Source: Pannonibacter phragmitetus DSM 14782
Lineage (GTDB): Bacteria > Pseudomonadota > Alphaproteobacteria > Rhizobiales > Stappiaceae
Assembly: GCF_000382365.1 (NCBI RefSeq)
Contig: NZ_KB908226.1
Span: 62,001-126,000 of the forward strand
Direction: 5' to 3'
Length of the DNA: 64,000 bases
Positions within the stretch are counted from its first letter, which is position 1. Each line of letters begins with the position of its first letter. The translations under genes and the position numbers were made by a program. Positions 6,526-49,280 of the stretch are shown here, piece after piece. The notes beneath the pieces were generated by a model. The model worked only from the letters and a program-made list of their open reading frames with translations. It searched no databases and was not told the origin of the DNA.

Positions 6526-7440
6526 GTGGCAGTCCTCTACACCTCAGAGGCAAAGCGCGGCGAAGTGTTCGCCGCGCATTTTGCCGCCGAACTGCCCGCC
6601 CTGCCTTTCCACCGCAACGAAGCGCCCGACCCGGCAGCGGTGGAATATCTCGTCGCCTGGACGGCGCCGCAGGATGTTGGCACCCGTTACCCCAATCTCA
6701 AGCTGCTGTTCTCGGTGGGCGCAGGCGTCGATCAGCTGAACCTTGCCGCCCTGCCGCCGCAGGTGCGCGTGGTGCGCATGCTGGAGCCCGGCCTTGCCGA
6801 GCAGATGAAGGAATATGTGACGCTCGCCGTCCTTGGCCTGCACCGGGACCTGCCGCGCTACATCAGCCAGAAATCCGCCAGCCTCTGGCAATCGGGACGC
6901 AATGTTCCGGCGCGGGAACGGCGCGTGGGCGTCATGGGCCTTGGACAGCTCGGCAAGGCGGTGCTGGAAGCCCTTGCCCCCTTCGGCTTTCCGCTGGCCG
7001 GCTGGAGCCGCAGTCCGCAGGACATTCCGGGCACCGGGACCTTTACGGATCTTCCCGCCTTCCTCGCCCGAACGGACATTCTCATTTGCCTGCTGCCGCT
7101 GACGGCTGAAACCACCGGCCTTCTGAATGCAGAGCTTTTCGCGCAATTGCCGCGCGGCGCCGCGCTGGTTCATGCCGGGCGCGGGCGCCAGCTGGATCAC
7201 GATGCCCTGCTGCAGGCGCTGGAAAATGGCCAGCTCTCCAGCGCCTGGCTGGACGTGACGGACCCGGAGCCGCTGCCACCGGATAATCCCTTCTGGCAGC
7301 ATCAGCAGATTGTGCTGACACCGCATGTGGCCTGCCAGACGCGGGCAGATGACGGGGCAAGACATGTGATCGCCGGAATCCGCGCGCATCAGGCGGGATT
7401 GCCGGTGCCGGGGCTGATCGACCGCGCCAGAGGTTACTGA
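6526..7440 (+). CDS. D-isomer-specific 2-hydroxyacid dehydrogenase, GhrA (glyoxylate/hydroxypyruvate reductase A) type
   Basis: A 304-residue protein with the Rossmann motif GVMGLGQLGKAV (about 135-146). The catalytic Arg lies in VHAGRGRQLDHDAL, a Glu in the DPEPLP segment, and the catalytic His in LTPHVACQT. The short N-terminal half and the sequence FSVGAGVDQL are characteristic of GhrA rather than SerA-like enzymes. It would reduce a 2-oxoacid such as glyoxylate with NAD(P)H in the cytoplasm. The start is GTG at 6526, four bases after the aminotransferase stop, so translation is probably coupled. In this setting it may reduce the 2-oxo product of the transaminase reaction; that is inference. 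Confidence 0.83.
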   Translation: MAVLYTSEAKRGEVFAAHFAAELPALPFHRNEAPDPAAVEYLVAWTAPQDVGTRYPNLKLLFSVGAGVDQLNLAALPPQVRVVRMLEPGLAEQMKEYVTLAVLGLHRDLPRYISQKSASLWQSGRNVPARERRVGVMGLGQLGKAVLEALAPFGFPLAGWSRSPQDIPGTGTFTDLPAFLARTDILICLLPLTAETTGLLNAELFAQLPRGAALVHAGRGRQLDHDALLQALENGQLSSAWLDVTDPEPLPPDNPFWQHQQIVLTPHVACQTRADDGARHVIAGIRAHQAGLPVPGLIDRARGY

Positions 7441-11093: not shown

Positions 11094-11929
11094 GCCAGAC
11101 ACCCGTCTCTTCGCCCCGCTTCGGATTCCGGATCAACGCGACCGGCATCATCGCCGGGCTGATCGTCCTGTTCTGGGCGCTCGTGGCCATCGCCGGCCCC
11201 TCGGTTGCCCCTTACGCTCCCGGCGATATCGTCGATTTCGATTTCTACGGCCCCATCTCGGAAAGGCTGTGGCTGGGTTCGGACTATCTGGGACGGGATA
11301 TCTTCTCCCGCATCCTGCTGGGCACGCGCTACACCGTCGGAATGTCGTTTGCCGCCGTCTGCATCGCCTGCTTCTCCGGCGTAGTGCTGGGCATGACGGC
11401 GGCCGTCACCGGCGGCTGGTTCGACACTGTGCTGAGCCGCCTGCTGGATGCCCTGAACTCGATCCCGTCGAAGCTCTTCGGCCTCGTCATGGTCGCGGCC
11501 ATCGGCTCGTCCATTCCGGTGCTGATCATCCTGCTGGCCGTCATCTATACCCCCGGCTCCTACCGCTTTGCCCGGGCGCTGGCGGTCAATTGCAACACGA
11601 TGGATTACGTCACCGTGGCGCGGGCGCGCGGCGAGCGGACGCTGTATCTCATCTTCCAGGAGATCCTGCCCAACATCACCGGCCCGGTGCTGGCTGACCT
11701 TGGCCTGCGCTTCGTCTTCATCGTGCTGCTGCTGTCGGGCCTCTCGTTCCTTGGCCTTGGCGTGCAACCGCCCAATGCGGACTGGGGCTCTCTGGTGAAA
11801 GAGAATATCGGCGGCCTGCCCTTTGGCGCCCCGGCTGTAATTGCACCATGCCTCGCCATCGCCAGCCTGACGATCAGCGTCAACCTTCTGATCGACAACC
11901 TGCCAGTCAAGATCCGGGACCGCGCCTGA
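11090..11929 (+). CDS. ABC transporter permease (DppC/OppC-like)
   Basis: A 279-residue inner-membrane permease. The N-terminal region before the transport domain ends in LGSDYLGRDIFSRILLGTR, the signature of DppC-type subunits. The EAA loop is TVARARGERTLYLIFQEILPN, and about five further TM helices follow. It overlaps the preceding permease by 4 bp, and its stop overlaps the start of the ATPase gene (TGATG). This indicates stoichiometric, coupled translation of the membrane complex. Confidence 0.9.
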   Translation: MSQTPVSSPRFGFRINATGIIAGLIVLFWALVAIAGPSVAPYAPGDIVDFDFYGPISERLWLGSDYLGRDIFSRILLGTRYTVGMSFAAVCIACFSGVVLGMTAAVTGGWFDTVLSRLLDALNSIPSKLFGLVMVAAIGSSIPVLIILLAVIYTPGSYRFARALAVNCNTMDYVTVARARGERTLYLIFQEILPNITGPVLADLGLRFVFIVLLLSGLSFLGLGVQPPNADWGSLVKENIGGLPFGAPAVIAPCLAIASLTISVNLLIDNLPVKIRDRA

Positions 11930-13587
11930 TGACCAAACCTCTTGCCGAAATCCAGGATCTGCATGTCGAAGCCCGCACCGACTCGGGCCGCCGGGTGGAG
12001 ATCATCAGAGGCGTCAGCCTGACCATCAACCCGGGCGAGATCGTTGCGCTGATCGGCGAAAGCGGATCAGGCAAGACCACCATTGCCCTCACCCTGATGG
12101 GCTACACCCGCACCGGCTGCAAGATCAGCGGTGGCAAGGTCCTGCTCGGCGGGCAGGATCTGGTGACGATGAGCGAATCCTCGCGCCAGAAACTGCGCGG
12201 CACGGATGTCGCCTATGTGCCGCAAAGTGCAGCCGCTGCCTTCAACCCCTCGCACCGGCTGATCGATCAGGTCGTCGAGGTAGCCAGCATCCACAAGCTG
12301 ATGAGCCGGACGGAAGCCCGCGCCAAGGCCGTGGAACTGTTCCGTGCGCTCGCTCTGCCGGAGCCGGAAACCATCGGCGAGCGCTATCCGCATCAGGTTT
12401 CCGGCGGCCAGCTGCAACGCCTTGCCGCTGCCATGGCTCTCATCGGCGGTCCGCAGCTCGTCATCTTCGATGAGCCCACCACCGCGCTGGACGTGACCAC
12501 CCAGATCGAGGTTCTGCGCGCCTTCAAGTCCGTCATGCGCAAGGGCGGCATGGCCGGTGTCTATGTCTCCCATGACCTTGCCGTCGTCGCCCAGATCGCG
12601 GACCGGATCATCGTGCTCAAGGGCGGCGAGATCCAGGAAGAAGGCTCGACGGAGCAGATCCTGCACGCGGCCACTCACCCTTATACGAAAGAGCTTCTGG
12701 CCGCGTTCCAGCCGGTACCCTTCGCAGCTCCTGCTGACGCCGAGGTGGACATGCCCGTCAAGCGGCCCATCCTCGAGGTCAGCGGCGTTTACGCAGGCTA
12801 TGGCCCGCTCGAACCCACCGGCCTGCCCTTCAAGACCGTGCTGAAGAACGTCAGCTGCAGGCTGGAGCGCGGGCATAATCTCGGCGTCATCGGCGAAAGC
12901 GGCTCGGGCAAATCCACCCTCGCCCGCGTCATCGCCGGTCTGCTGCCGCCGGTGCGCGGCCATGTGCAGCTGGATGGCCGGGAGCTGGACCCGAAAGCCA
13001 GATCGCGCAGCAAGGAAGAGCTGCGGCGGATGCAGATCGTTTTCCAGCTCGCCGATACGGCGCTGAACCCCTCCCGCTCCGTCGCCGATATTCTTGGCCG
13101 CCCGCTTGCCTTCTACCATGGCCAGAAAGGCGCTGCGCAGGAGGCCCGCGTCAACGAGTTGCTGGACATGGTGCGGCTGCCGCGTGCCCTGCGCCATCGT
13201 ATGCCGGGCGAACTTTCCGGCGGCCAGAAGCAGCGCGTCAACTTCGCCAGAGCCCTTGCCGCCAAACCGGATATCATCCTGTGCGACGAAATCACCTCCG
13301 CCCTCGACACGGTGGTGGCGGCAGCAGTGATCGAACTGTTGAAGGAGCTGCAGCGGGAGCTGGGCCTCTCCTACGTCTTCATCAGCCACGACCTCTCCAC
13401 CGTCCAGTCGATCTGCGACCAGGTGATGGTGATGCAGCATGGCGAAATGGTGGAGCTCCTGGCAAACGATCAGCTCCCGGCCGGCGCCACGCACCCCTAT
13501 TCCAAACTGCTCTTCTCCTCCGTGCCGAAACTCGACACCGGCTGGCTCGACAGCCTGCCAGAGAACTTCGCCAGCACGGCAGCCTGA
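11929..13587 (+). CDS. ABC transporter ATP-binding protein with two fused nucleotide-binding domains (DppD-DppF type)
   Basis: A 552-residue cytoplasmic ATPase. The first domain has Walker A GESGSGKTT (near residue 43), signature VSGGQLQR and Walker B VIFDEPTTALD. The second has GESGSGKST, LSGGQKQR and IILCDEITSALD, where Ile replaces the usual Pro of the DEPT/DEPV motif. Both sites look catalytically competent. Each half ends in a HPYTKELLAAF or HPYSKLLFSS segment, as in oligopeptide-type ATPases, so one protein replaces the DppD/DppF pair. The start is the ATG at 11929, overlapping the permease stop; the upstream extension to 11848 is out of character. Confidence 0.9.
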   Translation: MTKPLAEIQDLHVEARTDSGRRVEIIRGVSLTINPGEIVALIGESGSGKTTIALTLMGYTRTGCKISGGKVLLGGQDLVTMSESSRQKLRGTDVAYVPQSAAAAFNPSHRLIDQVVEVASIHKLMSRTEARAKAVELFRALALPEPETIGERYPHQVSGGQLQRLAAAMALIGGPQLVIFDEPTTALDVTTQIEVLRAFKSVMRKGGMAGVYVSHDLAVVAQIADRIIVLKGGEIQEEGSTEQILHAATHPYTKELLAAFQPVPFAAPADAEVDMPVKRPILEVSGVYAGYGPLEPTGLPFKTVLKNVSCRLERGHNLGVIGESGSGKSTLARVIAGLLPPVRGHVQLDGRELDPKARSRSKEELRRMQIVFQLADTALNPSRSVADILGRPLAFYHGQKGAAQEARVNELLDMVRLPRALRHRMPGELSGGQKQRVNFARALAAKPDIILCDEITSALDTVVAAAVIELLKELQRELGLSYVFISHDLSTVQSICDQVMVMQHGEMVELLANDQLPAGATHPYSKLLFSSVPKLDTGWLDSLPENFASTAA

Positions 13588-39611: not shown

Positions 39612-41042
39612 ATGGAGTACATTCAGTCGTTCTTCGGCTTGGTTGACAGTTTGACCTGGGGATGGGCGCTTATCCCGATCCTCGTCGTGTTCGGTGTTTT
39701 CATCACCATCATGTCGGGCTTCGTGCAGTTCGAGTTTTTCGGGCGCATGTTCCGCGTGCTCGGTTCCAATGCCAACAACTCCGATCCCAACACCATCTCC
39801 GCCCGTGAGGCGCTGCTTGTCTCCGTCGGCGGGCGCGTCGGCGGCGGCAACATTGCCGGTGTGGCCGTGGCCATCACCCTTGGCGGGCCGGGCGCCGTGT
39901 TCTGGATGTGGGCCATTGCGCTCTGCGGTATGGCGACCAGCCTGATCGAGTGCACCCTTGCCCAGCTCTACAAGAGCAAGGAGAGCGACGGCAGCTTCCG
40001 GGGCGGCCCGGCCGACTACATCCGCCGCGGCCTTGGCCAGCGCTACAACTGGCTTGCCATCGTTTATGGCATCTGCCTGCTGGCCTCCTTCGGTTTCGGC
40101 TTCAACGCCTTCCAGGGCAACACCATGGCCGGTGCCGTGCAGGACTCCCTCGGCATCGACCGCATGTATTCGGCCATTGCCATCGTGGCTGTCACCGCTT
40201 TGGTGATCTTTGGCGGCATCAAGCGCATTGCCAAGGCGGCTGATGTTGTGGTTCCGGTCATGGCGCTTGGCTACATCGCCTTGGCGCTGATCGTCATCGC
40301 CCTCAACATCACCGAAGTGCCGGACATGCTGATGCGCATCATCCGCTCGGCCTTTGGCTTTGAGGAAGTGGTTGCCGGCGGCATGGGTGCGGCGATCGCA
40401 CAGGGCCTGCGCCGCGGCCTGTTCTCCAACGAAGCCGGTCTCGGCTCGGCGCCCAACGTTGCAGCCACCGCGCTTGTCCGCCACCCGGTCAGCCAGGGCA
40501 TCACCCAGTCGCTGTCGGTGTTCATCGACACCATCCTGATCTGCACCTGCACGGCGCTGATCATCCTGCTGGGCGATGTCTACGTGCCGGGCGCACAGGG
40601 CATCGACGGTGTGGTTCTGACGCAGCAGTCGCTGGTCAGCCATGTGGGTGAATGGTCCAAGTATGCCCTCACTGCAGCCATCCTGCTCTTTGCCTTCTCG
40701 TCGATCATCTACAACTACTACCTCGGCGAGAACGCATTGGCCGTCGTCACCCGCTCCAAGCCGGCCGTCTTCGTGCTGCGCCTGCTGATCCTCGGTGTGG
40801 TGTTCCTCGGCGCCGTCGCTCCGCAGGCAACCTCGGTGTTCTTCTTCTCCGATCCGATGATGGGCCTGCTGGCGCTGGTCAACCTGATCGCCATCATCAT
40901 GCTGTTCCCGATCGCCATGCGGGTTGTCGATGACTACCGGACACAGCTGAAGGCAGGCGTTGCCCGCCCGATCCTCGATCCGGCCAAGTTCAACGACCTC
41001 GACCTTGACCGCAAGGCCTGGGACCCGGGCATCTGGAAGTAA
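39612..41042 (+). CDS. Alanine/glycine:cation symporter (AGCS family)
   Basis: A 476-residue inner-membrane carrier with about 11 TM helices. GRVGGGNIAGVAVAITLGGP is the sodium/substrate site of the AGCS family, and GLRRGLFSNEAGLGSAPNVA is its second signature. It imports alanine, glycine or a similar small amino acid with Na+ or H+. The ATG follows GGAGGAAACC. It precedes aspartase by 73 bp in the same direction, so the pair probably supplies and degrades small amino acids; whether it carries aspartate or asparagine is unknown. Confidence 0.92.
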   Translation: MEYIQSFFGLVDSLTWGWALIPILVVFGVFITIMSGFVQFEFFGRMFRVLGSNANNSDPNTISAREALLVSVGGRVGGGNIAGVAVAITLGGPGAVFWMWAIALCGMATSLIECTLAQLYKSKESDGSFRGGPADYIRRGLGQRYNWLAIVYGICLLASFGFGFNAFQGNTMAGAVQDSLGIDRMYSAIAIVAVTALVIFGGIKRIAKAADVVVPVMALGYIALALIVIALNITEVPDMLMRIIRSAFGFEEVVAGGMGAAIAQGLRRGLFSNEAGLGSAPNVAATALVRHPVSQGITQSLSVFIDTILICTCTALIILLGDVYVPGAQGIDGVVLTQQSLVSHVGEWSKYALTAAILLFAFSSIIYNYYLGENALAVVTRSKPAVFVLRLLILGVVFLGAVAPQATSVFFFSDPMMGLLALVNLIAIIMLFPIAMRVVDDYRTQLKAGVARPILDPAKFNDLDLDRKAWDPGIWK

Positions 41043-41115
41043 TCCGGACAGAAGCCTCATGGGCCGCCAACTGGCGGCCCATTTCACATCCCTGACATTG
41101 TTGTGAGAGAGAGCG

Positions 41116-42489
41116 ATGCAACAGCAGATGCGCATCGAAGAAGACAGTCTTGGCCGCATGTCCCTGCCGGCAGACTGTGTGTGGGGCATTCATACCGCCC
41201 GCGCCATCGAGAACTTCCCGATTTCCGGCATTCCGCTCAGTGCCTTCCCGGAGTTTGTCCGGGCGCTGGCCTGGGTGAAGAAGGCCGCCGCTGCCGCCAA
41301 CCTTGCCCTCGGCGTGCTGCCACAGGCAAAGCATGACGTGATCGCCTCCGTCTGCGACGAGATCATCGCAGGCCACCATCACGAGCATTTCCGGGTGGAC
41401 ATGATCCAGGGCGGGGCCGGCACCTCGACCAACATGAACACCAACGAGGTGATCGCCAATCTTGGCCTCATCCGTATGGGTTACCGGCCGGGCGACTATG
41501 CCCAGCTGCACCCCAATGACGACGTAAACAGGTCTCAGTCCACCAACGATGTCTACCCGACCGCCCTGCGCCTTGCCATCGTCAGCCAGTGCGACGCGTT
41601 CCGCGAGGCGCAGACCCGGCTTGCAGGCGCCTTTGCAGAGCGCGCCGGAGCCTTCGCCAATGTGCGCAAGATCGGACGCACCCAGCTTCAGGATGCGGTG
41701 CCGATGACACTCGGCATGGAGTTCGCCGGCTTTGCCGCGACCATCCGCGAGGACATCGACATCATCGGCCGCCTGTCGGAGCTGCTGCTGGAGGTGAACC
41801 TTGGCGGCACCGCCATCGGCACCCGCGTCAACACGCCGGACGGCTATGCCGAACGGGCGGTGGAGGAACTGTCAGCCGTCTGCGGCATGAAGGTGAAGCT
41901 CGCGACCGACCTCGTGGAAGCTTCCTCCGACGCCGGTGCCTATGTCACCTTCTCCGGCGTGCTGAAGCGCATTGCGGTGAAGCTGTCCAAGATCTGCAAC
42001 GACCTGCGGCTTCTGTCCTCCGGTCCGCGCTCCGGCTTCAACGAGATCCGCCTGCCGCCGATGCAGGCCGGCAGTTCGATCATGCCGGGCAAGATCAATC
42101 CGGTGATCCCGGAAGTGGTCAACCAGGTGGCCTTCCAGGTGATCGGCAACGACCTGACCGTCACCATGGCCGCCGAGGCCGGGCAGCTGCAGCTCAACGC
42201 CTTCGAGCCGGTGATCATTCTCAACGTGCTCCAGTCCATGCGCATCCTCATGCAGGCCATGGACACGCTGAACGAGCGCTGCGTCAGCGGCATCGAGGCC
42301 AACGTGGCCCAGTGCGAAGGCATGCTGGAAAACTCGCTGGTGCTGGCCACCATGCTGGTGCCGCATATCGGCTACGCCAAGGCCGCCAAGGTGGCCAAGA
42401 CCGCACTCTCCGAAAACGCCAGCGTCACCGAAACCGCCGTCAAGCTTGGCTTTGGCACGGCGGAGGAAATCACTGCCATGCTGCAGTGA
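41116..42489 (+). CDS. aspA: Aspartate ammonia-lyase (aspartase)
   Basis: A 457-residue member of the fumarase/aspartase superfamily. GAGTSTNMNTNEVIANLGL and HPNDDVNRSQSTNDVYPTA are substrate-binding blocks. GSSIMPGKINPVIPEVVNQV (from about residue 319) is the catalytic-serine loop; INPVIPE with VNQV distinguishes aspartase from fumarase. It splits L-aspartate to fumarate and ammonia. Asparaginase and an Asp/Glu racemase on the other side of the 42.6-46.7 kb island complete an Asn/Asp-using set. Confidence 0.9.
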   Translation: MQQQMRIEEDSLGRMSLPADCVWGIHTARAIENFPISGIPLSAFPEFVRALAWVKKAAAAANLALGVLPQAKHDVIASVCDEIIAGHHHEHFRVDMIQGGAGTSTNMNTNEVIANLGLIRMGYRPGDYAQLHPNDDVNRSQSTNDVYPTALRLAIVSQCDAFREAQTRLAGAFAERAGAFANVRKIGRTQLQDAVPMTLGMEFAGFAATIREDIDIIGRLSELLLEVNLGGTAIGTRVNTPDGYAERAVEELSAVCGMKVKLATDLVEASSDAGAYVTFSGVLKRIAVKLSKICNDLRLLSSGPRSGFNEIRLPPMQAGSSIMPGKINPVIPEVVNQVAFQVIGNDLTVTMAAEAGQLQLNAFEPVIILNVLQSMRILMQAMDTLNERCVSGIEANVAQCEGMLENSLVLATMLVPHIGYAKAAKVAKTALSENASVTETAVKLGFGTAEEITAMLQ

Positions 42490-42553
42490 TACGGCAAGGG
42501 GCGGTCCAAGCCCACCCAGCGCCGCCCCTTGCCACCTTCGGGAGACATACAAA

Positions 42554-42589
42554 ACCCGCCGCCCGATCTGGAGCGGCGGGTGTTTTTTT
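42554..42589 (+). terminator. Rho-independent terminator of aspA (may serve both strands)
   Basis: A 9-bp stem ACCCGCCGC / GCGGCGGGT with a TGTTTTTTT tail. On the minus strand its loop-stem is preceded by an A-run complement, so it could also stop transcription of the converging 42592 gene. Confidence 0.88.
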
Positions 42590-42591
42590 AA

Positions 42592-43668
42592 TCAGCGAAC
42601 GAGGCTCTGAGATCCGGGCGTCTCATCTTGCAAAGCAGATGAAGTCGCGGCATTCGCCATGGTGACGGATCGCCCTTCTGCCACAACGGCGTCACTCTCA
42701 GTTGCGGCGGTGTCTTGAGGCTGAGACGAAGCCGGAGCGTCAGCTTCAGCACCTTCCTCCAGGCCACGCAGCGACAACAGGGACGAAGCAGCAGTCCCCG
42801 AAAGCTGCCCAACACTCAAGACAACAGACAGAATGACAGCCAGAGCGAGAATGAGCGGGCTCGTCAACGCCCTGTCCATCCACGTTGGCGCCACCTGAAC
42901 CGGCTCCTGAGCCCCGAAAAATCCGAGTTGCAGCAGAACATCACCCGGCGAGGACACAACCCCGACAGCAAAGCCGGGTTTACCCGTGTCGAGCGGGGTT
43001 ATGTGACCGAAAACTTCCACACTCTCGGCGGCACCGTCTGCCAAAGAGACAATGGAAACGCTTTCTCCACGCCAGATCGAACCGCGCTTGAGGACTTCCG
43101 TGTTCTGTGACCAGAATGGTTGCTCCCGGATATCAAAACTGCCGTTCAGGATCATCTTGGTCTCGCCCGAGGCAAGCTGATCGCCGATTTGAACTATGCC
43201 GCTAAATGTCAGGGCACCGGCGGCCAGCCAGCTTTCGCGGTTCACGATCACACGCGTGCGGTCAAGCATGCGGGCCTGCCCGGTTATATCCAGCACAAGC
43301 ACACCTGGTGAGGGTGATGTAACTTGTGCAGATGACCCCGCACTCCAGTTGATACGGAAGTCGTCCTCATTGCTTTCTATGTAACGCCGGGCATCACATT
43401 GGCCGCTGCCCCGCTCCGCAGTGCGCTCAATCTTCGCACGCGGTACGCAGACCACCACATCACTGAATGCCCAGTCATTTGACTGTCCGGAAAACCTGAC
43501 CACCATACCGGTGGCCTGCGCTTCCAGCACGATTGACCGGACAGATCCGACGCCGGAGGAAATGGCCAATAGCAACAGGAGGGCAGAGAAGCCGAGCAAT
43601 CCAGCCGATGAAGAGATAAGCAGCAGAACTGCGGGCCGCCTCACCAATGAGGGTACGGCCTTGCTCAA
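42592..43668 (-). CDS. Unrecognised membrane protein with periplasmic domain (exported-protein island)
   Basis: A 358-residue protein that I do not recognise. An N-terminal TM helix (PAVLLLISSSAGLLGFSALL, about 12-36) is followed by about 220 residues likely in the periplasm, with two Cys near residues 73 and 90 (VVVCVPRAK, SGQCDARR) that could form a disulfide. A second TM helix near 268-290 (SPLILALAVILSVVLSVG) leads to a low-complexity, Ala/Ser/Glu-rich cytoplasmic tail. Its ATG overlaps the stop of the upstream secreted-protein gene by 4 bp, so they are cotranscribed. GC content is visibly lower than in the flanking metabolic genes. A membrane anchor or sensor for the neighbouring exported proteins is only a guess. 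Confidence 0.75.
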   Translation of the reverse strand: MSKAVPSLVRRPAVLLLISSSAGLLGFSALLLLLAISSGVGSVRSIVLEAQATGMVVRFSGQSNDWAFSDVVVCVPRAKIERTAERGSGQCDARRYIESNEDDFRINWSAGSSAQVTSPSPGVLVLDITGQARMLDRTRVIVNRESWLAAGALTFSGIVQIGDQLASGETKMILNGSFDIREQPFWSQNTEVLKRGSIWRGESVSIVSLADGAAESVEVFGHITPLDTGKPGFAVGVVSSPGDVLLQLGFFGAQEPVQVAPTWMDRALTSPLILALAVILSVVLSVGQLSGTAASSLLSLRGLEEGAEADAPASSQPQDTAATESDAVVAEGRSVTMANAATSSALQDETPGSQSLVR

Positions 43669-44360
43669 AGTTTACGCCCCGGCCGGAGAATGATGTGCTC
43701 TTCGCGCCCCATTTCTCCATTTCTGAATGAGAGAAACACAGCCTTCAAACTGTCTTTGCTGGCCAGGGCCTCAGGCAGGCTGCACATCACATCAAACGCT
43801 GTTCTTGAGGCAGTATCCACGGGCTCACAGACAACCTCTTGCTGATCCGGATAGTCAGAGAATGTCAAATAGGTCTCATCGGCCCGCGATGTATTCAGCA
43901 AGATCTTCAGTCCGCCATGAGGCCCCTCGCCCCAGAAGACCGGAGCCACCTCAGCCGCATCGGCGTCACAACTGCCCTTCAGCAGAACGCCCGAGATGAG
44001 GTTAGCTGGGATACTGAGCACGTCACCTGGAACTTTACTTGGGTAGGGAAGGACCACCTCGCCCCCCTCCCAATCTGGCGCAACGGTGTAAGAATTGTAG
44101 GATTCATACAGTCCGTCAGCGGAAACAACCTTGAGGCAAACCTCCTCATTCTTCCAGTCAGCAGGAATGTTTGCCGCAACACTCAACTTGTCACTTTTGG
44201 GACCGGCTGAAATCAACCCGACAAGCCGGGCTCCCGATATCTTTGCAGCCTCGCGCATAACTTCGTTAAAAGGATCCGAGGTCAAAAAAACTTTACTTCC
44301 CTCTCCTGCAAACGCAAAGTTCGGAATCAGCGCCAGCGCAATCGCAAAAGTACGGATCAT
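43665..44360 (-). CDS. Unrecognised exported protein with four cysteines (exported-protein island)
   Basis: A 231-residue protein with a clear signal peptide, MIRTFAIALALIPNFAFAG, cleaved after AFA. The mature part has four Cys (EEVCLKV, KGSCDAD, EVVCEPV, DVMCSLP), suitable for two disulfides, and looks beta-rich. No known family comes to mind. The ATG at 44360 has GGGGAG nine bases upstream; the ATG three codons earlier (44369) is immediately next to that site and less likely. It is followed, with a 4-bp overlap, by the membrane-protein gene. The divergent trypsin-like gene starts three bases away. Confidence 0.75.
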   Translation of the reverse strand: MIRTFAIALALIPNFAFAGEGSKVFLTSDPFNEVMREAAKISGARLVGLISAGPKSDKLSVAANIPADWKNEEVCLKVVSADGLYESYNSYTVAPDWEGGEVVLPYPSKVPGDVLSIPANLISGVLLKGSCDADAAEVAPVFWGEGPHGGLKILLNTSRADETYLTFSDYPDQQEVVCEPVDTASRTAFDVMCSLPEALASKDSLKAVFLSFRNGEMGREEHIILRPGRKL

Positions 44361-44363
44361 TTG

Positions 44364-45416
44364 ATGCATCTCCCCGCTGCTATCGCGTTTATATTAGCCT
44401 GTCTTAGTCTGAGCTGCACCTCTGCATTTGCACAGACGGTGGCAGTACATAGCGGCGAGAATCAAGGTCACGGCCTCATATTCCGGGAAGGAGCGACCTG
44501 CTACGTCATTCTGCCCCGGCATGTCTCAGCGGGAAGGCGGAATGTGACGCTGTTCTCTGCAGTTCCGGCTGTACACGCAAGCGCTCTGATCGAAACGCCT
44601 TTCTGGGAGGATATGGATCTCGCCATTGGCATTGTCCGGGGAGACCTCGAGAAACGCTGCAGCCTGCGGCTGACTGATCTCGATGCATCCGCACAGCCGG
44701 AAAAAGGCAGCCAACTTCAATTGCAGCGCCTGCGCCAGTCGGGAGAACTGGAGCGCATCGGCATGGTCATAACGAATAGCCGATACCGTGAGTTCGACGC
44801 CGGGATCGTCAATGGCACCAGTGAGGTCTTCAAAGGCACCAGTGGCGCCTTCCTGTTCTCCGGAGAGACGCCAGCCGGCATGATTATTGAAGCTCTCTCG
44901 CCTACGTCAGGACGCTTTATCCGGATCGAAGAGATTTTTCTGAACGTCAACCGGTGGGTGAAGCGCCGCTCCGGATTTGCGGCAACTGAAACACGCCCGG
45001 CAAATCAAAGCTCTCAGCCAGGCAAGGAGAGCCCATTTGAGCTTGCAAGCGCGTCTCTGCCTCCCATCGACCCCAAATATTCGGAATACAACCTGAGCGG
45101 ATCCGGAAATTATGTGTTTGAGCTTTCCGCTCCGAACCGCATCGCCTTCAAGGCGAAAGGGAACGCGGCAGTTACCTTGTCAAAGATTGAAATGCGCGCA
45201 ACACCAGAACCAGAGGTGAGCGTTCCCCGCAATGTCGTGATCGAACTCTCCAACACCGAAGATGGAATGAGGACCCGCGTCGGCGCAGCAGCGGAAATGG
45301 GCCCCGACGGTGTTCTCGACATCACGCTTAATCAGAAGACGCGCTGGGTCTTCATCACCATCAGGTCCGCATGGGACAGCACGACAGTGGGCCTCGACAC
45401 CATACGGTTCGAATAG
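44364..45416 (+). CDS. Exported trypsin-like serine protease-fold protein (exported-protein island)
   Basis: A 350-residue protein with signal peptide HLPAAIAFILACLSLSCTSA (cleaved near AFAQ). It has a plausible chymotrypsin-fold triad in correct order and spacing: His53 in CYVILPRHVS, Asp85 in EDMDLAIGIV and Ser160 in FKGTSGAFLF. The oxyanion motif reads GTSGA rather than GDSGG. A C-terminal domain of about 130 residues (from about 220) begins after a polar linker and looks beta-sandwich-like. It would act in the periplasm. It is the only plus-strand gene of the island; its start lies 3 bp from the divergent 44360 start, so its promoter must lie inside that gene. The substrate is unknown; neighbouring exported proteins are candidates. 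Confidence 0.72.
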   Translation: MHLPAAIAFILACLSLSCTSAFAQTVAVHSGENQGHGLIFREGATCYVILPRHVSAGRRNVTLFSAVPAVHASALIETPFWEDMDLAIGIVRGDLEKRCSLRLTDLDASAQPEKGSQLQLQRLRQSGELERIGMVITNSRYREFDAGIVNGTSEVFKGTSGAFLFSGETPAGMIIEALSPTSGRFIRIEEIFLNVNRWVKRRSGFAATETRPANQSSQPGKESPFELASASLPPIDPKYSEYNLSGSGNYVFELSAPNRIAFKAKGNAAVTLSKIEMRATPEPEVSVPRNVVIELSNTEDGMRTRVGAAAEMGPDGVLDITLNQKTRWVFITIRSAWDSTTVGLDTIRFE

Positions 45417-45421
45417 CAAAG

Positions 45422-46027
45422 CTATCTCAGCTGGATACGAACAGGAACCTGCTCAGCCCACCCCAGATCGACATTTCCAACCAGAGCCGCATCGTCGTTG
45501 AATGTGACCTGGTTCCAGTTGTTGTTAAACTTGACCTGAATGACTTCAGGACGAACCATAAGCCAGCATCTGCCGCCATTGCCCTTATCGATGTAGCAGT
45601 CCCCGGACGGATCGTACTCACCAACAGTCACGCTGACGGCGGCAACGCCGGACCCATTGGGCTGGACCTTGAACCTTTGCTCCATCGCCTCGCTGAAGTC
45701 CCCTTTCGAACCCTTTTCGGAAAAGAACATGTCGATACGGGGATTGGTCGCCAGAAAGCCCTTGAGCGCCTCAGCCCGCACAGCCGGATTTGAGCTATAC
45801 AGGCCATGGTCAGCAGCAAGCTTGATCAGTTCCGGATCTCCGGAAGCCAGCATGACCTTCAGCGCAGTCAGCGCCCGTTTTGGATCAGAATGATCGAGCA
45901 GCGCGATATACTCGCTGCCTTTCGCCATTTCCTGGTCAATCTGCTTCTGCAGATCCTCGACGGACAGTGATTGTGCCGGGCAAAGCGCCGGCCAAAGGCA
46001 AGCTGCAACGGCGATGAGAAGACGCAT
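45422..46027 (-). CDS. Unrecognised exported protein, tandem paralogue of 46036-46671
   Basis: A 201-residue protein. Signal peptide MRLLIAVAACLWPALCPAQS. A helical segment (about 20-95) with SDPKRALTALKVMLASGDPE and YSSNPAVRAEALKGFL resembles a pair of HEAT-like helices. A beta-rich C-terminal part follows, with a Cys pair DCYIDKGNGGRCW. The same helical repeat and C-Y-x8-C spacing are in the next protein, so the two arose by tandem duplication. Function is unknown. Its stop is 5 bp from the stop of the trypsin-like gene, so the two genes converge almost without spacer. Confidence 0.75.
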   Translation of the reverse strand: MRLLIAVAACLWPALCPAQSLSVEDLQKQIDQEMAKGSEYIALLDHSDPKRALTALKVMLASGDPELIKLAADHGLYSSNPAVRAEALKGFLATNPRIDMFFSEKGSKGDFSEAMEQRFKVQPNGSGVAAVSVTVGEYDPSGDCYIDKGNGGRCWLMVRPEVIQVKFNNNWNQVTFNDDAALVGNVDLGWAEQVPVRIQLR

Positions 46028-46035
46028 GGCTTACC

Positions 46036-46671
46036 TCAGTTGCTGATGGGGACACGGAGCGTCACAGGTTTCTCAACATCGGGAAGTTTGACTTCTCCGA
46101 CCAACTCCCCCTTGTCGTTCATTCTCAGCGCGGCCTTGCGGTCAAGAACCTCGATTGAAACTCCAAGATCTGATATAGTTAAAAAACAGGCCGTATTGCG
46201 AAGTTTACTCGGGTAGCATCTTGTTTCCGGATTGAATGCGCCGATTGGCGCCACAAAGTAACCTTGACCAGCTGCATCAACAGATCCATACAGATAGTCG
46301 TGAATTGATCTTTTATAGCGAGCATCCTTCGCCCCGCCCTCGACATTTGTATAGATGCTCATGTTGGGCGCACTGCTCAGAAAGCCCTCCAGTGCCAGCC
46401 GCTGCACCACGGGATTGGGGCTGTAGATCCCATAGTCCAGCGCCATACGGACTAGCTTCGGATCCCCGGATTCAAGCATGACCTCCATCGCGGCCATGGA
46501 GCGGTTTGGATCTGAATCGTTCAACAGCGCCTGATATTCAGACACCGTTGCTACCTTGGCGTCGATCTTACTCTTGATATCCGAGGGCTTGAGCGATTGA
46601 GCCCCAGCCTGACCGCTGATGAAAAGAGCCAATACAAGAACACCCAGACCAGAAACAGAACGCAACTTCAT
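46036..46671 (-). CDS. Unrecognised exported protein, tandem paralogue of 45422-46027
   Basis: A 211-residue protein. Signal peptide ends GQAGAQS near residue 25. The helical part has EYQALLNDSDPNRSMAAMEV, MLESGDPKLVRMALDYG and YSPNPVVQRLALEGFLSSAP, aligning closely with the downstream paralogue. The C-terminal part has the matching pair RCYPSKLRNTACF and ends in PVTLRVPISN (PVRIQLR in the paralogue). The start is ATG 46671 after GGGGGAG; a start five codons earlier is possible. First gene of a two-gene minus-strand unit and the upstream boundary of the island. Confidence 0.75.
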   Translation of the reverse strand: MKLRSVSGLGVLVLALFISGQAGAQSLKPSDIKSKIDAKVATVSEYQALLNDSDPNRSMAAMEVMLESGDPKLVRMALDYGIYSPNPVVQRLALEGFLSSAPNMSIYTNVEGGAKDARYKRSIHDYLYGSVDAAGQGYFVAPIGAFNPETRCYPSKLRNTACFLTISDLGVSIEVLDRKAALRMNDKGELVGEVKLPDVEKPVTLRVPISN

Positions 46672-46790
46672 ATCTCCCCCGCACAATATCTCCAGTTCAG
46701 GATTGTATGTGACGGAGCCTAAATCAAGCGATAATCCTGCCAGATCTGCATTCCGCCTCCGGCTTCAGGGGCTGCGGGGTATATTTCCAC

Positions 46791-47636
46791 TCAATTCAAC
46801 CACAGCCGCACCAGCGCGGCTTCCGGCGTTTCGAGGCCGCCGTTTTCGACGCCGCAGGACCACAGTCCGGCTCCCGCGGCATAGCTGCCGGGGATAAGGC
46901 CGCCCTGCTCGCACTGGCTGACGGCGCGGATACGCTTGCCCGCAGCCACTGCGTCACGCAGGGCGCCAAGCACGTCCTCGCAGGACATGGCCGTGCCGGA
47001 GCCGAAGACGCGCAGCACCGCGCCATCAAGCTCGGCAAGCGCAGCCCGCAGCATGGCCGCAGGCATGCCCGGAGACAGGGAAAGGACAGCGATACGCCGG
47101 TCATCAAAGCGGCGGCGGGCAGGCAAGCCCGGCTTCAGCTGCGGCGTGGCGCGGAAGGCATCGGCATCCTGGCTCTCGTGCTTCACCAGCCCTTCGGCAG
47201 GCATCAGCTTGCCGTCAAAGGCCAGCCACACGCCTTCGCCCGGCTGGAAGGCAGCGCGGATGGCAAGATCGAGATTGCCCTCCGCATCGCCGTGATGGTG
47301 CAGCGGCACCATGGAGCCGCACAGCACCACATGCCGGCCAAGCCCCGCCAGCGCCTGCGAAAGGGCCGCACCCGTGAAGGCCATCGTATCGGTGCCATGG
47401 GTGATGATCACCCGCGCGCCGGGATGGGCCTCGATGGCATCCAGCATCCCGTTCCAGTGAGACGGCCCGACGTTGGAACTGTCCAGCAGCGGATTGAAGA
47501 CATGGGCAAGCAGCACCGCGCCTTCCGGCAGCCGGGCTTCCAGCGCCTCTTCCACGATCCCAGCCATGGGTGCAAGACCGTGCTCCGTGTCACCCATGCC
47601 GATGGTGCCACCCGTATGTATCAGCAGAAGTTCCAT
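46791..47636 (-). CDS. Asparaginase
   Basis: A 281-residue enzyme. LLLIHTGGTIGMGDTEHG is the first catalytic block (nucleophilic Thr), and VIITHGTDTMAFTGAALSQA is the second, with the Thr-Asp pair; GSGTAMSC lies later. It is shorter than E. coli type I/II asparaginases (about 330) but keeps both catalytic blocks. No signal peptide, so cytoplasmic: Asn to Asp and ammonia. The ATG at 47636 overlaps the stop of the racemase gene by one base, so they are coupled; a GTG one codon earlier is possible. Its product feeds aspartase. Confidence 0.88.
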   Translation of the reverse strand: MELLLIHTGGTIGMGDTEHGLAPMAGIVEEALEARLPEGAVLLAHVFNPLLDSSNVGPSHWNGMLDAIEAHPGARVIITHGTDTMAFTGAALSQALAGLGRHVVLCGSMVPLHHHGDAEGNLDLAIRAAFQPGEGVWLAFDGKLMPAEGLVKHESQDADAFRATPQLKPGLPARRRFDDRRIAVLSLSPGMPAAMLRAALAELDGAVLRVFGSGTAMSCEDVLGALRDAVAAGKRIRAVSQCEQGGLIPGSYAAGAGLWSCGVENGGLETPEAALVRLWLN

Positions 47637-48364
47637 CACGCTGCTGCCCGGTGGTGCTCAAGCGCAAGGCCGGCCAGAGCGGCGGCCACGGCATCCGTCA
47701 CGTCAATCAGCGTCTTGCCCTGAACGGGACGGGCGATCAGCGGCAGCTCGGTGCAGGCGAGCAGCACCGTCTGCGCCTCCATGGACAGGATGATCTCTTC
47801 CAGCCGGGGCGCAAGCGAGGCATCCATGCTGCCAAGGCGCTTCACGTCGTGAATGAGGCCTTGCAATGCCTGCGGCTCGACCGGAGTCTCCAGATCGAAA
47901 ACCGGCGTCAGCGTCGCATAGGCGGAATATTCGTCCAGTGCGACAACAGGCGCTGCACCCAGAAGGCCGACGCGGCCGGAGCCGGAACGGCGGATTTCGG
48001 AAGCCACCACGGACTGGAACGACACCAGCCGCGCACTGACGCCCATCTTGGCCAGCAGCACCTCGATCTTCGGCGCAAACCAGTTCAGCGTGTTGCAGGC
48101 AATGGCGAAGGCATCCACCTGCGGCGCGATCTGCCGCACGGCACGCTCCATCGCGGCCCAGACGGCATCCTCGTTTTCACGCAGGTCCATCGACAGGCCG
48201 AGTTCCGGCTCGGATACCGCCACAAGACGCGGCGCATCAAGATCGCCGCGGAAACTGCAGCCCATCATGTCCTGGGTGTGGCGCAGGATCTTGGCCCACA
48301 TGTCCAGACCCGCTTCGGGGCCTGATCCGGTGATGATGCCAAGGGTGTAAGATCTCTGGTTCAT
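47636..48364 (-). CDS. Aspartate/glutamate racemase family protein
   Basis: A 242-residue member of the Asp/Glu racemase superfamily. Both catalytic cysteines are present, in FAIACNTLNWFAP and VLLACTELPLIA. GIITGSGPEAGLDMWAKIL is the N-terminal substrate loop. It would interconvert D- and L-aspartate (or another acidic amino acid) so that D-isomers can enter the asparaginase/aspartase route. The ATG at 48364 follows GGGGGAAC. It is the first gene of the operon with asparaginase and is divergent from the XRE regulator. Confidence 0.86.
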   Translation of the reverse strand: MNQRSYTLGIITGSGPEAGLDMWAKILRHTQDMMGCSFRGDLDAPRLVAVSEPELGLSMDLRENEDAVWAAMERAVRQIAPQVDAFAIACNTLNWFAPKIEVLLAKMGVSARLVSFQSVVASEIRRSGSGRVGLLGAAPVVALDEYSAYATLTPVFDLETPVEPQALQGLIHDVKRLGSMDASLAPRLEEIILSMEAQTVLLACTELPLIARPVQGKTLIDVTDAVAAALAGLALEHHRAAA

Positions 48365-48406
48365 GGTGTTCCCCCTTTTCCCAGATGGTGCAACCCCGCA
48401 GTTTCC

Positions 48407-48452
48407 TTGACAATTCGGCATTCATCCACTAAATGATGCACTCTTGTGCATT
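48407..48452 (+). promoter_or_regulatory. Promoter and 16-bp palindromic operator of the XRE regulator / racemase divergent region
   Basis: A consensus -35 TTGACA is at 48407-48412, with a weak TAAAT -10 candidate 18 bases on. ATGCAC + TCTT + GTGCAT (48437-48452) is a perfect inverted repeat directly after it, 22 bp before the regulator start. It is the natural autoregulatory site. Confidence 0.5.
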
Positions 48453-48473
48453 TTTAGCATCAAAGAGCGCAAA

Positions 48474-49280
48474 ATGGACGAAATCGCCGGGAATCTTCGC
48501 CTGCTTTGCTCCTACCGCCCCTCGATTTCCCATGTGGGGCGGGATCTCGGCATCAACCGCAGCCAGCTGAACCGCTATCTGGCAGGCACCTCGACGCCGC
48601 GCACGGCGCTCATGCGCAAGATCTGCGATTACTTCGGCGTCGAACCCTACGAGATGATGCTGCCGCACAAGGAATTTGCGGAGATCGTCCGCATTCGCGG
48701 CCTTGGCAATGACACGGTGACGCGGCGCCTGCGCCAGCATTTCGACCAGGTGATGACGCTGAGCGACGCCCGTGTGCAGAACCTCACCGGCATGTTCTAC
48801 GAGTATTACTACTCAATGTCGCAGAAGGGCAAGATCATCCGCGGCCTCATCGTTTTCACGATGGAAGACGGGCACATGTTCTACCGGCGGCTGGAGCGCA
48901 TGGGCCAGCATGACCGGCCGTGCCTGCGGCATTACCGCTATCAGGGCGCTGCACTTCTGACCGGCGACCGGGTGTTCATGTCCGACTATGAATACAGCGC
49001 CGGCATCGAGCTGACCCAGACCATCCTCTACCCGGATTACTCCCTGCGCTGGACGCGCCTGCACGGGGTGAAGCTCGGCGTCTCCGCCGACCAGATCCAC
49101 ATGCCGTGCTGCGTGCGGGTCTATCTGGAGCGCACCCCGGCCCGCCTGAACATCACCGGCGCCCTGCGCACCTGCGGCCTGTTTCTTCCCGAGGACCCGC
49201 AGATTCCCCGCCACGTGCTGGAGATGATCGACAACACCCAGTCCGGCCCCTTCACCTTCGACGCCTACAGCAGGCGGTGA
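48474..49280 (+). CDS. XRE-type helix-turn-helix regulator of the Asp/Asn genes
   Basis: A 268-residue protein. The N-terminal helix-turn-helix (about residues 13-42: SISHVGRDLGINRSQLNRYL) follows the Cro/C1 pattern. The remaining 210 residues form an effector-like domain not recognised as a named family; it contains YEYYYSMSQKGKIIRGLIVF and a Cys-containing MPCCVRVYLE strand. The start is ATG 48474; the longer start at 48444 would begin inside the palindrome. It is divergent from the racemase-asparaginase operon and is therefore its probable regulator. Confidence 0.8.
   Translation: MDEIAGNLRLLCSYRPSISHVGRDLGINRSQLNRYLAGTSTPRTALMRKICDYFGVEPYEMMLPHKEFAEIVRIRGLGNDTVTRRLRQHFDQVMTLSDARVQNLTGMFYEYYYSMSQKGKIIRGLIVFTMEDGHMFYRRLERMGQHDRPCLRHYRYQGAALLTGDRVFMSDYEYSAGIELTQTILYPDYSLRWTRLHGVKLGVSADQIHMPCCVRVYLERTPARLNITGALRTCGLFLPEDPQIPRHVLEMIDNTQSGPFTFDAYSRR

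Follow-up and report, generated by a model that had tools for sequence, protein, structure and literature searches.

A co-inherited cassette of exported and membrane proteins with a predicted HtrA-like protease, a candidate extracytoplasmic proteolysis module

In Pannonibacter phragmitetus DSM 14782, an island of five open reading frames (ORFs), all encoding exported or membrane proteins, lies between aspA and an asparaginase gene. We asked whether these genes form a system and what such a system would do. The DNA analyzed, hereafter the window, is 64,000 nucleotides long (NZ_KB908226.1, 62,001–126,000), and coordinates below are window positions unless a locus is named with them. The island (42592–46671) holds four protein families, g1 to g4, with g4 in two copies. 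We are almost certain that these families form a unit located in the envelope. At a probability of roughly 45%, we further read this cassette as a horizontally spread, self-contained and wholly extracytoplasmic proteolysis module, whose complex would cleave envelope protein that is foreign or damaged; protection is the purpose that we tentatively favor. A preliminary description of the sequence had reported ORFs at 42592, 43665, 44364, 45422 and 46036, each with a signal peptide or transmembrane helices, and both observations were confirmed. Its main inference, that an envelope system complete in itself was inserted at aspA/asparaginase, is supported; in detail, the five-gene set is made up of four families with one gene duplicated. 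The features are as follows.

42592..43668, minus strand: g1, a membrane protein with two transmembrane segments and a beta-rich periplasmic domain between them; TTG start
43665..44369, minus strand: g2, an exported protein with four invariant cysteines (78, 134, 181 and 196)
44364..45416, plus strand: g3, a predicted exported serine protease, HtrA/DegS-like over residues ~20–202, with a discoidin-like C-terminal domain at ~222–350
45422..46027, minus strand: g4b, an exported HEAT-like protein, the copy adjoining the protease gene
46036..46671, minus strand: g4a, an exported HEAT-like paralogue of g4b
42586..46789, no strand: the inserted stretch, 4204 bp, in place of which the same-genus genome G008 has 25 bp
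42554..42581, minus strand: a terminator-like hairpin between aspA and the island, with a similar hairpin at the same place in G008

All four families occur together at 20 loci examined, in Alphaproteobacteria, on a Pseudoalteromonas plasmid and in one other non-alphaproteobacterium, so that the company the preliminary description proposed looking for in other alphaproteobacteria is kept there and beyond. These loci were chosen as complete cassettes. Omitted were L034, a generic trypsin without partners; L047, a 4.4-kb contig that starts inside the protease gene and holds only the protease end and g4; and L035, L038, L039, L041, L042 and L043, which repeat the same organism or region. The divergent layout of the window is seen at 14 of the 20 loci; at five, g2-g1-g3 run the same way and g4 converges on them, and one (L052) carries g3-g4-g2-g1 on a single strand. 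g4 is present once at 15 loci, twice at four and three times at one. Pairwise identities were correlated across the four families (r 0.75–0.88; 0 of 2000 permutations as high), a comparison that used 19 loci, L033 being near-identical to L032. Comparison of 175 ORFs in flanks of up to 6 kb gave nine pairs between loci that passed E 1e-12; two were orthologous between L032 and L033, and the other seven resembled common paralogues (aminotransferases, ABC transporters and kinases, by names we inferred). Cassette contexts are mostly unshared between loci.

Genome-wide searches, in which all counts take in the window's own genome, returned protease matches in 1/87 genomes of the family, 5/397 of the order, 6/385 of the class and 3/398 of the phylum. 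One class match, at locus L034 of G698, is to a generic protein of the Trypsin_2 type (E 2.5e-29) that has none of the partners; all remaining protease-match loci have the four families. Loci L030–L033 were found by the protease profile alone, and models from other loci then found g1, g2 and g4 adjoining in 4/4. Protease searches under-count: G055, from the window's own family, was negative yet has a diverged cassette, which brings the family count to at least 2/87; G291 was overlooked at the order level, and G505, from the window's class, was found by a wider profile only. The g2 profile matched 7/327 order genomes, all seven with the whole cassette and two of them overlooked by the protease query. 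No other family keeps as strictly to the cassette as g2.

The partner genes of L022 were first chosen by eye and entered into the models. With models built without this locus, its g2, g3 and g4 were still found (E 2e-20 to 2e-12) and its g1 was not (E 0.27); the latter is linked by BLASTP to g1 of L071 (E 1e-36) and L053 (E 2e-13). The g1 model without L022 found L040, L052 and L053 well, and returned L071 (E 0.033) and L072 (E 0.016) as top matches. On two loci without the cassette, none of the four models gave a match.

Named carriers include Methylobrevis albus, Roseitalea sp., Roseivivax halodurans, Roseovarius tolerans and an uncultured Roseovarius. Plasmids carry the cassette in Cereibacter sphaeroides 2.4.1 (pC), Paracoccus aminovorans (plasmid IV), Tistrella mobilis (pTM2) and Pseudoalteromonas shioyasakiensis (p1). 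Between two same-genus copies (L032 and L033), the ratio of nonsynonymous to synonymous substitution rates (dN/dS) was 0.06–0.20, and the proteins are therefore under constraint (purifying selection); in the Tistrella pair, g4 had a dS of 1.7, near saturation. Two records hold broken genes. At L020, an in-frame stop (~8730) interrupts g4 close to its beginning, the mark of either a decaying copy or a sequencing error. At L039 (C. sphaeroides DSM 158 plasmid pC), g1, g2 and g3 are broken over several frames, possibly by read errors, since few features are annotated in that record.

The insertion itself is visible by comparison with G008. There, flank identity is 92.9% on one side and 94.4% on the other, and 25 bp join the flanks, against 4204 bp in the window; this empty site bears out the placement between aspA and asparaginase, and shows the two genes adjacent where the cassette is missing, as the preliminary description suggested checking. 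The left junction lies just beyond the hairpin that G008 shares, so the hairpin is older than the insertion. Reading of the 4.2-kb insertion revealed no transposase, integrase or clear target duplication. Island GC content is 0.557 against 0.638 in the remaining window, in line with the lower GC already described, and of all 4080-bp stretches in the window the one with the lowest GC begins at 42721. Because of this low GC and the rarity of the cassette, gain in the window's lineage is likelier, though not proven, than loss in G008.

The genes are packed as tightly as first reported. Four lie on the minus strand, with g3 alone on the plus strand; the g1 and g2 ORFs overlap by 4 bp, and gaps of 5 bp and 8 bp separate g3 from g4b and g4b from g4a. 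As annotated, the g2 and g3 ORFs diverge from an overlap of 6 bp; if g2 begins at its second methionine (44360), they lie 3 bp apart instead. With the two starts within a few bases of each other, any promoter of either gene would sit inside the other; a promoter search at this divergence gave a single promoter-like site, no more than in shuffled sequence. The surrounding region is not the Asp/Asn operon of the preliminary description: aspA is on the plus strand and faces minus-strand genes for asparaginase and an Asp/Glu racemase-family protein, so that the cassette sits between convergent genes, directly beyond the hairpin. The aspA gene of the region 39612–49280 is 99% identical in G008, whereas its best match in 10 further genomes examined is at most 43%; the Asp/Asn cluster thus seems accessory in its own right.

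At L052, the cassette stands between two direct copies of a 443-bp stretch (6859–7301 and 11851–12293, 92% identical) from the 3′ portion of a helicase gene, as would be expected had its integration duplicated the target. Near two other cassettes (L045, 5805–6821; L046, 1330–1848) we noted by eye what we take to be an IS110-type transposase and a tyrosine-recombinase fragment.

At the center of the functional question stands g3, which is modelled as a chymotrypsin-fold serine protease nearest HtrA/DegS. An AlphaFold2 model from 7 sequences reached a mean predicted local distance difference test score (pLDDT) of 81.8. For residues ~20–202, the closest solved folds were DegS, DegP and DegQ, including 2rce_H (DegS) at Z 19.0 over 166 residues with a root-mean-square deviation (rmsd) of 2.5. 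His53, Asp85 and Ser160, the trypsin-like triad recognized in the preliminary description, are invariant in 20/20 homologues, as are Cys46 and Cys99, and g3 is very probably an active protease. Foldseek rows of ~130 columns matched a chitosan-binding module (4zxe, target template-modelling score 0.71) and IFT25 (2yc4, 0.76); we infer that they belong to the C-terminal 129 residues, whose fold we take to be discoidin-like. In L052, the protease C-terminus is SH3_3-like instead (E 6.5e-5; 23.5 bits, below the Pfam cut-off of 27).

Sequence searches with g3 gave no significant match in Pfam (including Trypsin and Trypsin_2), NCBIfam or PDB sequences, and its assignment to an ordinary trypsin family was rejected on this ground. 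The same Pfam scan did recognize the unrelated L034 protein as Trypsin_2 at the E value given above. Nine protease homologues run against Pfam yielded only two sub-cut-off matches, to unrelated families in one homologue each. No PDZ domain was matched in g3 by Pfam at E up to 1, nor in the nine homologues at 0.1; housekeeping HtrA proteases normally have one. Like HtrA/DegS (S1C), then, g3 is exported, with a matching chymotrypsin fold and a His-Asp-Ser triad; unlike them, it escapes the Pfam trypsin models, has a discoidin-like or SH3-like C-terminus with no PDZ domain seen, and is bound to three partner families.

The partners are harder to place. g1 has transmembrane segments at ~12–48 and 264–294, and two such segments were found by hydropathy in 20/20 homologues. 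Its model (mean pLDDT 76.0; ectodomain blocks 66–96, mostly above 80) matched nothing at E ≤0.001 in the PDB or among viral folds, which is no proof of a new fold; the best VIA-align row, a two-transmembrane channel with a large ectodomain (8h8d, Z 4.5, 65 residues, rmsd 4.2), is at noise level by the tool's own criterion. The four listed cysteines of g2 are invariant in 20/20. The g4a and g4b products, already described as two related exported proteins, are paralogues (31–32% identical), and g4 profile positions 40–94 match artificial HEAT-like alphaRep proteins (E 1.5e-5). No homology was found between g1 and g2 or between g2 and g4. Pfam, NCBIfam, PADLOC and PHROGs gave no significant match to g1–g4, in agreement with the earlier view that, the trypsin-like triad apart, they match no familiar family. 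Domains resembling g4 also stand by themselves or form part of larger exported proteins (L073, 9394–10764; L074, 8990–10540; L075, 8884–9480), without a Pfam match, which suggests a wider HEAT-like family.

How might these parts work together? Since each product has a signal peptide or transmembrane segments, all face the periplasm or sit in a membrane. The C-terminal domain of g3, discoidin-like or in one locus SH3-like, would act as a binding domain that holds the protease near the envelope. The closely coupled g2-g1 pair may serve as a membrane-anchored receptor or scaffold, and g4 as a helical-repeat adaptor or regulator, binding either the client or the protease. Together they would then act outside the cytoplasm and cut envelope protein that is foreign or damaged. 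Because the cassette is rare, is carried in part on plasmids and is inserted with no companion genes, we prefer a conditional, protective trait to housekeeping, and we tentatively favor protection against incoming macromolecules such as phage entry proteins, bacteriocins or contact toxins. A fuller version, rather doubtful, is a novel kind of extracytoplasmic immune module without any cytoplasmic component, in which the HtrA-like protease, tethered by an interchangeable binding domain and triggered from outside via g2 and g4, would cut the attacker or a channel-like effector g1.

Several results weigh against the protective proteolysis module. A tblastn search with the Methylobrevis protease found no match in 50,697 phage records, and PADLOC 2.0.0 matched 0/9 cassette proteins at E up to 0.1. 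Flanks hold mostly metabolic or transport genes; when ten flank proteins were rescanned singly, three matched defense models, two at L040 and one at L052. g4 matches in 9/318 class genomes comprise five with the cassette and four with g4 alone within 19 kb. In two of these four genomes, the g4-like part is the closing portion of an exported protein of larger size; the match in G650 is probably a coiled-coil chance match. The single scattering of homologues that the preliminary description would have counted against a system is thus seen for g4 alone (4/9) and not for the cassette, which stays together at 20 loci. Separately, 33 viral stretches fit a pattern, with no relatives among them, and phage cargo was rejected as an origin: none of the phage records searched matched the Methylobrevis protease, and the g1 model has no viral fold match at E ≤0.001.

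The flanks were also surveyed in bulk. From 133 flank ORFs listed at 17 loci, 102 were chosen for a PADLOC scan that matched 68 families; these were not assigned to members, and with no control set their enrichment is unjudged. Two neighborhoods stood out in sequence. On a C. sphaeroides plasmid (L036, 1485–3930), a gene for a caspase-domain protein (PF00656, E 4.4e-26) with an N-terminal hydrophobic stretch and two small genes adjoin g1 in the same direction. In Roseitalea (L044, 5248–9639), the beginning of g4 is overlapped by a gene for a 1463-aa protein that has PG_binding_1 and LprI domains and no family assignment along its remaining length.

The preliminary description held that the island could be an envelope stress, inter-bacterial immunity or protease-inhibitor set. 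The first corresponds to accessory envelope quality control, with a PDZ-less DegS/HtrA-like protease, a g4 client adaptor and a g1-g2 membrane receptor clearing damaged periplasmic proteins. The nearest solved folds of g3 speak for this reading; we nevertheless judge it unlikely, given a protease so rare and sporadic across order, class and phylum, a cassette missing at the same site in G008, and the PDZ domain expected of a housekeeping HtrA. The other two come together in a protease with cognate inhibitor or immunity proteins, for inter-bacterial competition or self-protection, where g3 would be a weapon or processor restrained by g2 and the g4 copies. Variable g4 copy number and the two potential disulfides of g2 would fit, but the cassette lacks export machinery or a toxin domain, and larger exported proteins elsewhere carry g4-like domains where the protease is absent; we hold this to be improbable.

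More improbable again is a protease-triggered membrane effector, in which g3 would cut the two-transmembrane g1 and g1 would then permeabilize the membrane. The topology of g1, a beta ectodomain between transmembrane segments in 20/20, agrees with such a role, as does the weak channel match, though its Z of 4.5 is at noise level. Bacterial gasdermin-protease pairs, a loose analogy, set a protease gene beside a membrane-protein gene, as the cassette does; g1 differs in being an integral protein of two transmembrane segments with a domain in the periplasm, and it has no gasdermin match. That there is no system at all, the genes being neighbors by chance or hitch-hiking, is extremely improbable. 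g4-like domains outside the cassette and the partnerless protease match at L034 point that way; we rejected it because four families at 20 loci, in three gene orders and mostly unshared flanks, diverge in a correlated manner, because all four loci found by the protease profile alone had the other three genes, and because g2 came with the cassette in 7/7.

Trypsin-like effectors are known from other conflict systems. The parts of PMC7159879 available to us describe systems (VMAP/MoxR-vWA, GAP1-N and NucA-trypsin) built around NTPases, GTPases or the NucA nuclease. As far as those parts go, the cassette resembles them in placing a trypsin-like peptidase in a sporadically distributed, multi-gene accessory system, and differs in consisting of g1–g4 only, with no NTPase or nuclease family match and with all products exported or membrane-bound.

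As a gene system the cassette is apparently undescribed; a narrow check of the literature did not turn it up. It defines an HtrA-like protease family in which discoidin-like or SH3-like domains replace PDZ. If protective, it would be a defense acting wholly outside the cytoplasm, and to our knowledge few such systems are known. Because Cereibacter sphaeroides 2.4.1, a laboratory model strain, carries the cassette on plasmid pC (proteins WP_011331351, WP_227590681, WP_017140480 and WP_011331348), its function is directly testable. Four co-inherited families without a significant match in the curated collections that we searched amount to a mobile envelope unit with a predicted protease.

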